This document shows positions 9,387-12,619 of a stretch of DNA of 64,000 nucleotides, piece after piece. The stretch's first letter is position 1. The number at the start of each line of letters is the position of its first letter. The notes under the pieces were generated by a model that saw only the letters and a program-made list of their open reading frames with translations, did not search any database and was not told the origin of the DNA. This DNA comes from Deltaproteobacteria bacterium (GTDB lineage Bacteria > Myxococcota_A > Polyangia > Polyangiales > Polyangiaceae): positions 124,001-188,000 of the forward strand of contig VGRJ01000001.1 in the NCBI GenBank assembly GCA_016875405.1. Direction: 5' to 3'. The translations under genes and the position numbers were made by a program.

Positions 9387-10784
9387 ATGAAGCTCCCGTC
9401 CCACGTCTTTCGCGAGTACGACATCCGCGGCGTCGCCGACGTCGATCTCAGCGACGAGCTCGTTCGCTTGATCGGCCGAGCACTCGCGACCGACCTTCGT
9501 CTCGGGGTCGAGACACCAGCGGACCGCACGATCCGAGTCGCGGTCGGGCGAGACTGTCGCCTGTCGAGCCCGCGCCTCTTCGCAGCGCTGACCGAAGGCC
9601 TGCTCGCTGCCGGTGCCGACGTGATCGACATCGGGGTGGGGCCGACGCCGATGCTGTACTTCGCGGCGCACCACCTCGCGACCGACGGCGCGGTGATGAT
9701 CACCGGCAGCCACAACCCGGCGGAGGACAACGGCTTCAAGTTGATGCGCGGAACGGGAGCGCTGTTCGGTGACGCCGTGCGCGCGCTCCGCGAGCGCATC
9801 GAGCGGAGCGACTACGCCACCGGGCCGCGAGGGGAGCTGTCGCGCGAGGATGTCTCGGCCGCCTACGTCGAGGCGCTCGTCGTGCGGAGCCGCTTCGGCC
9901 GTGCACCGGGCTCGCTGAAGGTCGTGGTCGATGCGGGCAACGGCGCGGCCGGACCGCTGTCGCTTCGGGTGTTCGAGGCGCTCGGCGTTCGGGTCGACCC
10001 AATGTTCTGCGAGATGGACGGGCGCTTCCCGAACCACCATCCCGATCCGACGGTCGAGGAGAACCTGGTCCAGCTGAAGGAGCGCGTGCTCGCGACGGGC
10101 GCGACGCTCGGCATCGCCTTCGACGGCGACGGTGATCGCGTCGGCGTGATCGACGACCGCGGCGGCGTGATCTGGGGCGACAAACTGATGGTGTTGTTCT
10201 CGAGGGGCGTCCTCCGCGAGCACCCTGGCGCGGCGATCCTCGGCGAAGTGAAGTGCTCGCAGACGCTGTTCGACGACATCGCGCAGCACGGCGGGCGCCC
10301 CATCGTCTCGCGCACCGGGCACTCGCTCATCAAGAAGCGCATGAAGGAAGAAGGGGCTCTGCTCGCCGGCGAGATGAGCGGCCACATCTTCTTCGCGGAC
10401 CGCTTCTTCGGCTTCGACGACGCGATCTACGCCGCGGTGCGGGCGCTCGAGATCGTTGCGGACGCAGGCAAGAGCCCGCGCGAGCTGCTCGCAGACGTCC
10501 CGCTGACGGCGGCGACGCCCGAGCTCCGGGTCGCTTGCCCTGACGCGATCAAGTTCGAGGTCGTCGCTCGGGTTCTCGCTCACTACCGCGGCACCCACGA
10601 CGTGCTCGACATCGACGGAGCGCGCATCCTGTTCGGCGAGGGCGCGTGGGGCCTCTGCCGCGCGTCCAACACCGGACCGGTGCTCGTCCTGCGATTCGAG
10701 GCGACGACGCCCGAGCGACTCGCGGCGATCCGCGCGGAGGTCGAGGCGGTGGTGGCAGCCGCCGTAGCGGAGCTCTGCCGTTGA
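9387..10784 (+). CDS. manB: Phosphomannomutase/phosphoglucomutase (alpha-D-phosphohexomutase)
   Basis: A 465-residue alpha-D-phosphohexomutase interconverting hexose 6- and 1-phosphates for sugar-nucleotide, exopolysaccharide and lipopolysaccharide synthesis. All four family signatures are present: the phosphoserine loop TGSHNP near residue 113, the metal loop DGDGDR near residue 250, the sugar-binding loop GEMSGH near residue 330 and the phosphate-binding RASNTGPVL near residue 430. The length is normal for the bacterial bifunctional PMM/PGM enzyme. Whether mannose or glucose is preferred cannot be read from the sequence, so the symbol is a family-level choice (algC is used for the same family). 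Its TGA overlaps the presumed TTG start of prmC. Confidence 0.9.
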   Translation: MKLPSHVFREYDIRGVADVDLSDELVRLIGRALATDLRLGVETPADRTIRVAVGRDCRLSSPRLFAALTEGLLAAGADVIDIGVGPTPMLYFAAHHLATDGAVMITGSHNPAEDNGFKLMRGTGALFGDAVRALRERIERSDYATGPRGELSREDVSAAYVEALVVRSRFGRAPGSLKVVVDAGNGAAGPLSLRVFEALGVRVDPMFCEMDGRFPNHHPDPTVEENLVQLKERVLATGATLGIAFDGDGDRVGVIDDRGGVIWGDKLMVLFSRGVLREHPGAAILGEVKCSQTLFDDIAQHGGRPIVSRTGHSLIKKRMKEEGALLAGEMSGHIFFADRFFGFDDAIYAAVRALEIVADAGKSPRELLADVPLTAATPELRVACPDAIKFEVVARVLAHYRGTHDVLDIDGARILFGEGAWGLCRASNTGPVLVLRFEATTPERLAAIRAEVEAVVAAAVAELCR

Positions 10785-11665
10785 TCGAGTCCGCGGGCAG
10801 TAGCGGCGAGGAGCCTTGGACGGTCCAGCGCGTGCTGCGCTGGTCGGCGGACGACTAGCGGCAGCGCGGCTCGACGAGCCCGCGGCTCGACGCGGAGCTG
10901 CTCCTCGCTCGCGTGCTCGGGTGCGATCGCGTCCGCCTCGTCATCGACGGGCAACGACCGCTCGCGCCGAGCGAGCTCCAGACCTACCGCGAGCTCCACA
11001 AGCGACGGCGTCGCGGTGAGCCGGTGGCGTACCTGCTCGGCGAGCGTGAGTTCTACGGTCGCCGCTTCGTCGTCGATTCGCGCGTCCTCGTCCCGCGCCC
11101 CGAGACCGAGCACCTCGTCGAGGTAGCGCTCGAACGGACGCGTCACCTGAGCCTCTCGGCCCGCTGCCTCGATCTCTGCACCGGCAGCGGCTGCGTCGCG
11201 ATCACGCTCAAGAAGGAGCGGCCGACCACCTCGGTGACGGGCTCGGACGTGTCACGCGGCGCGCTGGTCGTCGCGCGTGACAACGCCGTTCGGCTGGGCG
11301 GCCTTGTCGCGTTCGAAGAGGCGGACGGGTTCCGCGGCCTCGAGCGCCTGCGCGGGCGGGTCGAGCTCGTGACGGCGAATCCCCCCTACATCCCTGACGT
11401 GAACCACGCGACGTTGCCGACCGACGTGCGCGACTTCGAGCCGCGCCTCGCGCTCACCTCGGGCGGAGACGGTCTCGATTTGACAAGGCGCATCGTCGCC
11501 GACGCGGCCTCTTTCCTGGCTCCTCGCGGTGTGCTCGCGCTCGAAATCGACGCGCCGAGCGGGCCCGCCGTCGTCGGGCTTTTCGAGGCGGCGCGCTTCG
11601 AGGACGTTCGTCTGACCCGCGACTACGCGGGACGTGACCGAATCGTGTCGGGGCTGCGCCGGTGA
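10781..11665 (+). pseudogene. prmC: Release-factor glutamine methyltransferase gene interrupted by an in-frame amber codon
   Basis: PrmC methylates the GGQ glutamine of release factors RF1 and RF2. Read from the TTG at 10781 (overlapping the manB stop), the N-terminus is the usual WTVQRVLRWSADD, then TAG at 10856-10858 (codon 26), then RQRGSTSPRLDAELLLARVLG, continuous in the same frame. Relatives have Leu where TAG stands, so one base change (TTG to TAG) explains it. Downstream everything is intact: PRPETE, DLCTGSGCVA and the catalytic NPPY in TANPPYIP. A restart at GTG 10913 would lose about 44 residues of the helical N-domain that docks the release factor. It could be a true nonsense mutation, a sequencing error or a readthrough gene. 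TAG is the normal stop of several intact neighbours. Confidence 0.8.
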
Positions 11666-11728: not shown

Positions 11729-12619
11729 ATGGCGGACACGGCGAAGGACGGGCGTGACGGAGGCCAGGACGATAAGACCCTCGGCGTGCGCGCGGCGGTG
11801 CGCCGGTGGCGCGCAAGGCCGCGTCGCCTCGACCTCCAGAAGACGCTCTTCTTGTTGCCGAACCTGATCACGCTCTCGAGCGTCTTCTGCGGGTTCTACT
11901 CGATGGTGATGTCGAGCCGCGCGGCGACCGAGGAGGACTTCTACCGCGCCGCCGTGCTCATCGTGTTCGCGATGTTCTTCGACACGCTCGACGGGCGCGT
12001 CGCCCGCATAACGAAGACGCAGAGCGCGTTTGGTCTGCAGATCGACTCGCTCGCCGACGTGCTCTCGTTCGGGGCAGCTCCGGCCCTGCTCATCCACCGC
12101 TTCACCCTGGCGACCCTGGGCACGCTCGGTCTCGTCGCGAGCTTCGCGTTCGTGGCCGCAGGGGCCGTGCGGCTCGCGCGCTTCAACGTCCTGTCGATGG
12201 GCCACGGGGGCGCTCCGACCAAGCCCAGCAAGTACATCGTCGGGCTGCCGACCCCTGGCGCAGCGGGGATCCTGGTGTCGCTCGTGGTCGCGAACAACGC
12301 GGCGCACGGCGCCTTGGGGAGCGCGCGCTATGCCGGCGTGTTTCTCGGCGTGACGCTCGGACTCGCGTTCTTGATGGTGTCTACGGTTCGGTTCCGAAGC
12401 TTCAAGGACGTGAAGCTCGACGGCCGCGCCCTCGCGCTGGTCGGCTTCGTCATCGCGACGAGCCTCGTCATCCTGTCGCGGCTGTCGCCTGCCTTCGTGC
12501 TCGTGTGGCTCCTCGGCTGCTACGTCGTCCTCGGGATCGGTGAGACCTTGTGGGGCCTGTCGCGACGACTCCGGGGCGACACGACCCGAGGGCGCCGTTC
12601 GCTCCACCCCAAGCCGTGA
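11729..12619 (+). CDS. pssA: CDP-diacylglycerol-serine O-phosphatidyltransferase
   Basis: A 296-residue polytopic membrane enzyme making phosphatidylserine from CDP-diacylglycerol and serine, the first step to phosphatidylethanolamine. The CDP-alcohol phosphotransferase signature is complete: DG-x2-AR-x8-G-x3-D-x3-D, reading from DTLDGRVAR to DSLAD at about residues 86-112. A charged N-terminal extension of about 35 residues precedes the first membrane helix (LFLLPNLITLSSVFCGFYS); the helices and the GxPTPxAA-like segment GLPTPGAAG fit the PssA subgroup. Its stop overlaps the next gene's GTG (GTGA). The psd gene that usually partners with it is not in the window. Confidence 0.88.
   Translation: MADTAKDGRDGGQDDKTLGVRAAVRRWRARPRRLDLQKTLFLLPNLITLSSVFCGFYSMVMSSRAATEEDFYRAAVLIVFAMFFDTLDGRVARITKTQSAFGLQIDSLADVLSFGAAPALLIHRFTLATLGTLGLVASFAFVAAGAVRLARFNVLSMGHGGAPTKPSKYIVGLPTPGAAGILVSLVVANNAAHGALGSARYAGVFLGVTLGLAFLMVSTVRFRSFKDVKLDGRALALVGFVIATSLVILSRLSPAFVLVWLLGCYVVLGIGETLWGLSRRLRGDTTRGRRSLHPKP

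Follow-up and report, generated by a model that had tools for sequence, protein, structure and literature searches.

The UAG codon is read by RF1 only, and RF1 is a substrate of PrmC, the release factor N5-glutamine methyltransferase. The prmC gene is growth-important in E. coli K-12, and its deletion in E. coli is lethal or severe when RF2 carries Thr246 and viable when RF2 carries Ala246 (PMC5373646); PrmC has also been termed non-essential (PMC8131318). In B. subtilis, depletion of RF1/PrmC increased the readthrough of cognate stops approximately fivefold (PMC8073009). In-frame stops occur widely in bacterial genes that are held under purifying selection (Belinky et al. 2021, PMC7918605), and the frameshift motif of the RF2 gene, prfB, is conserved across bacteria (PMC12421855).

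In the window, which is the whole 64,000-nucleotide stretch of DNA analyzed here, we found a prmC frame on the plus strand (10781-11665) that runs from a TTG start to a TGA stop (11663-11665). The sole interruption of this frame is an in-frame TAG at codon 26 (10856-10858), and no frameshift accompanies it; the translation reads LIESAGSSGEEPWTVQRVLRWSADD, the stop, and then RQRGSTSPRLDAELLLARVLG, and is open from there up to the TGA. A Shine-Dalgarno-like GGAG (10769-10772) is located 8 nt upstream of the TTG. The upstream neighbor on the same strand is a phosphomannomutase/phosphoglucomutase (PgmG-like; 9387-10784), the TGA stop of which overlaps the prmC TTG, and the downstream neighbor, also on the plus strand, is pssA, encoding CDP-diacylglycerol--serine O-phosphatidyltransferase (11729-12619; TIGR00473, 110.1 bits against a cut-off of 107). 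If the TAG terminates translation, the product is a 25-residue peptide (10781-10858), and the next in-frame ORF starts with a GTG and encodes 250 residues with a complete methyltransferase domain (10913-11665).

When the TAG was read through, the product scored 265.8 bits with TIGR03534 (cut-off 199.1), which places it in the PrmC family, and 210.9 bits with hemK_fam over residues 14-292; Pfam PrmC_N matched with 72.1 bits in an alignment that spans the stop. The NPPY catalytic motif (ANPPYIP) and the SAM-binding motif (LDLCTGSGC) were both present, and their columns were invariant or nearly so in 30 sequences. The best solved relative was E. coli PrmC (PDB 2b3t), and an AlphaFold2 model in which Leu stands for the TAG showed a mean pLDDT of 94.6 and a target-normalised TM-score of 0.96 against this structure. 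In the model, helix 1 of the N-terminal domain spans residues 15-28 and thus includes codon 26, and what the gene lacks is a continuous frame through this helical domain. A search of the whole assembly (5.02 Mb, 218 contigs) revealed prmC to be single-copy, with no second gene of the kind that the initial annotation had suggested looking for. Its description of a single in-frame amber codon in an otherwise intact prmC was borne out by the translation, the profile matches and the copy number.

We compared codon 26 with the corresponding position in 29 relatives of the same genus, family and order, including three congeners. None of the 29 had a stop there; the residue was Leu in 12 and Phe in 17, and the N-terminal helix was intact. 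In the genome under study, the codons flanking the TAG keep this conserved helix in a single frame, just as in all of the relatives, and at the level of sequence the interrupted frame was thereby confirmed to be beyond chance. The residue had been described as a conserved leucine, which is true within the genus but not in the wider family, where the residue is Leu or Phe. The proposed origin of the stop by one base change, from TTG to TAG, could not be established, as the three congeners having this region carry CTG, CTG and CTT, and two changes are needed from CTG. A change from TTG is only one possible path to the stop, and the single step is an assumption.

Private changes around the stop were scored relative to two congeners that agree with one another. 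In the 18 codons from the TAG to the GTG at 10913, we found four synonymous and no nonsynonymous private changes, against a neutral expectation of approximately 21 nonsynonymous changes over the branch of this genome (branch dS approximately 0.55); the stop has therefore either arisen very recently, is false, or is read through. Ahead of the TAG, three private nonsynonymous changes were present in two codons. As a rough estimate, with dS near saturation, the segment from the TAG to the GTG could have been untranslated for at most approximately 14% of the branch. The relaxed selection past a lesion that marks a pseudogene was not observed, and a very young lesion would look identical in this respect.

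The ORF from GTG 10913 alone scored 255.4 bits with TIGR03534, above the cut-off of 199.1, because the model begins at approximately residue 37. In the AlphaFold2 model, the form starting at this GTG has lost helix 1 together with almost the whole of helix 2, and the nearest GGAG (10894-10897) lies 15 nt upstream of the GTG, which is a poor spacing. The initial annotation had raised the case of homologues that begin at this GTG. The segment preceding the equivalent of GTG 10913 was present in every PrmC homologue examined (29 close and 80 distant loci), and even the shortest of the distant loci, from Neisseria and related genera, retained it. A naturally short PrmC was rejected, since the upstream segment was present in all relatives examined.

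A profile search of the whole genome for RF1 revealed nothing above the cut-off and found only RF2, which has the SPF motif; RF1 was found in the congeners G001 and G004. With the RF1 neighborhood of G004 as the query, contig C101 matched to one side and contig C150 was found to start inside RF1 (C150:1-58), encoding its first 18 residues, MLPIEKLESLTRRHDELE, compared with MLPIEKLETLTRRFDELQ in G004. Because this N-terminus at the edge of C150 occupies the syntenic place, we consider RF1 to be present but unassembled, with the remainder predicted by congener synteny to lie in the gap between C101 and C150, and loss of RF1 was rejected. Automated surveys would count RF1 (prfA) as absent despite a completeness of 99.13%.

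The terminators of 1,707 predicted genes (2.33 Mb) were TAG in 178 (10.4%), TGA in 1,455 and TAA in 74, and the family profiles of the TAG-ended tpiA, htrA and bioF in the window aligned up to the protein end or close to it. No CTA anticodon was found among 37 tRNAs, a set that is incomplete, as no tRNA for Tyr, Asn or Ile(gat) was found either; the search for an amber-suppressor tRNA that the initial annotation had proposed was therefore negative within this set, and a suppressor tRNA within a gap is possible. In addition to the normal tRNA-Gln(ttg), ARAGORN reported one of 98 nt (L119:2372-2469), which is probably spurious. Pyrrolysine decoding was rejected, as the best PylS match reached 21.9 bits against a cut-off of 178, and ordinary control genomes also give matches below the cut-off. 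General amber recoding, which had been judged unlikely from the TAG-ended neighbors, was not supported by the terminators, the profiles, the tRNAs or the PylS search.

Other in-frame stops were surveyed by codon usage in 2.33 Mb; this survey was not exhaustive, had limited sensitivity and was judged by eye, and prmC itself scored modestly in it. As positive controls, the survey recovered two selenocysteine genes. In an NtrC-type response regulator, the position of the conserved receiver-domain Tyr is occupied by an isolated TAA (C2:84911-84913, minus strand; L202:4911-4913), across which the domain scored 96 bits. Isolated lesions are thus not amber-specific. A TAG was also present in a kinase-like gene (C2:6988-6990, plus strand; L198:6988-6990) that is missing part of its kinase domain and looks like a decaying pseudogene. 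Isolated nonsense codons, both TAG and TAA, therefore occur at a low rate in the assembly. A tblastn survey with the ORFs of relatives, also judged by eye and cluttered by wrong-frame shadow ORFs, revealed prmC as the sole well-supported interrupted gene. The assembly, a draft, is probably metagenome-derived.

We also found genuine recoding in this genome. The prfB gene (C6:56222-57235, minus strand; L149) carries the classical +1 frameshift site, AGGAGG TAT CTT TGA C, and at least two genes with an in-frame UGA match selenoprotein families. One encodes a SelW/Rdx family protein with a CVMU motif, in which the in-frame TGA probably specifies selenocysteine (L292:749-751, contig C54, minus strand; PF10262, 63.4 bits), and the other encodes a thioredoxin-fold (seleno)protein with a TUGYCR motif (L298:9266-9268, contig C60, minus strand; NF053656, 209.8 bits, cut-off 100). 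The prmC TAG resembles none of these cases. RNA folding 3' of the TAG was no better than that of shuffled sequences (z-scores of 0.80 and -0.01).

These observations bear on several readings of the stop. If TAG were a sense codon in this organism, through loss of RF1, pyrrolysine or a suppressor tRNA, a whole-genome search that gives RF2 only would be expected; however, the RF1 N-terminus at the contig edge, the use of TAG as the terminator of roughly one predicted gene in ten, and the negative PylS and CTA tRNA searches, the latter in an incomplete set, have already largely refuted this reading, which we regard as having next to no probability. That GTG 10913 is the true start, the upstream match a remnant and the shorter PrmC normal here would agree with the profile score of this ORF alone, but the upstream segment is carried by all relatives examined and is still conserved here, with a favorable initiation signal at TTG 10781, and two helices would be largely lost, so this is highly improbable. 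A further reading is a stop that regulates its own gene: unmethylated RF1 would terminate poorly at the prmC UAG, and more full-length PrmC would be made when PrmC is low, as in the RF2/prfB frameshift. The decoding of UAG by a PrmC substrate alone, the readthrough response to depletion in B. subtilis and the preserved N-terminal coding segment are consistent with such control. Nevertheless, none of the relatives shares the stop, whereas true release-factor autoregulation is conserved, as at the prfB site; neither RNA structure beyond chance nor, among the 37 tRNAs, a suppressor was found; and a new or false stop would leave the segment just as conserved. The feedback loop put forward in the initial annotation is thus unsupported and improbable. 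The specific form in which a real, recent prmC amber is read through at a rate set by RF1 methylation, with PrmC controlling its own synthesis in a UAG counterpart of the RF2 frameshift loop, is very unlikely.

The reading that we favor, with a probability of approximately 50%, is a base error or a minority allele in the draft assembly. The prmC TAG would be an isolated one-codon lesion without a mechanism of its own, arising from a base-level error or from a minority-strain base that entered the consensus, and cells of the species would most likely encode an amino acid at this position and produce normal PrmC of full length. That the TAG base itself is wrong or minority is what we infer from the absence of a stop in the relatives, congeners included, from the lack of nonsynonymous private changes between the TAG and GTG 10913, from the single copy of a gene that is growth-important in E. 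coli K-12, from the fragmented draft with RF1 in a gap and three tRNAs missing, and from the second isolated nonsense codon, a TAA, in the response regulator. Two observations count against it: given the congener codons, an error would have had to strike an earlier TTG or alter two bases, and the assembly has few errors overall, since most surveyed genes are intact. The alternative is a real, very young nonsense allele, in which translation ends after 25 residues, a low natural rate of readthrough or weak re-initiation at GTG 10913 supplies scant PrmC, and poorly methylated release factors are tolerated thanks to Ala246 of RF2. RF2 of this genome reads RAGGKGGQ, with Ala at the equivalent of E. 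coli position 246 as counted back from GGQ; because prmC deletion is viable in E. coli with this residue, a real null allele is credible on this analysis, and the description of PrmC as non-essential and the wide occurrence of such in-frame stops are in line with it. In contrast, the absence of decay near the stop would require an extremely recent origin, the Shine-Dalgarno spacing at the re-initiation site is poor, and the segment before GTG 10913 is missing from none of the close or distant loci. We regard the real allele as a strong competitor, and an error or minority allele as more likely.

The main value of the lesion is one of caution, as the stop is masked in annotation and RF1 is seemingly absent though in a gap. 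Gene callers will place the start at GTG 10913 and label prmC intact, and the lesion is thus hidden, because the truncated form scores well above the cut-off of the family model. Should the TAG prove real, prmC would offer a naturally occurring nonsense allele combined with an Ala246 RF2, and with it a useful test of the dispensability of release factor methylation in nature.

Compared with bacterial PrmC/HemK, as represented by E. coli PrmC (PDB 2b3t/1t43; TIGR03534), the product has the same fold, N-terminal domain, DLCTGSGC and NPPY when the TAG is read through, and it differs in the in-frame TAG in helix 1. The in-frame-stop genes of Belinky et al. 2021 (PMC7918605) likewise have a single stop with the frame and coding signal retained on both sides, whereas the prmC stop is private to one draft assembly and unconserved. 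The programmed +1 frameshift of prfB likewise involves a stop early in a gene with a role in termination, where the gene's own product could sense it. However, the stop in prfB is a UGA and comes with a slippery codon and a Shine-Dalgarno-like element, all conserved across bacteria; none of these accompanies the prmC TAG, and the two sides of the prmC TAG share one frame.
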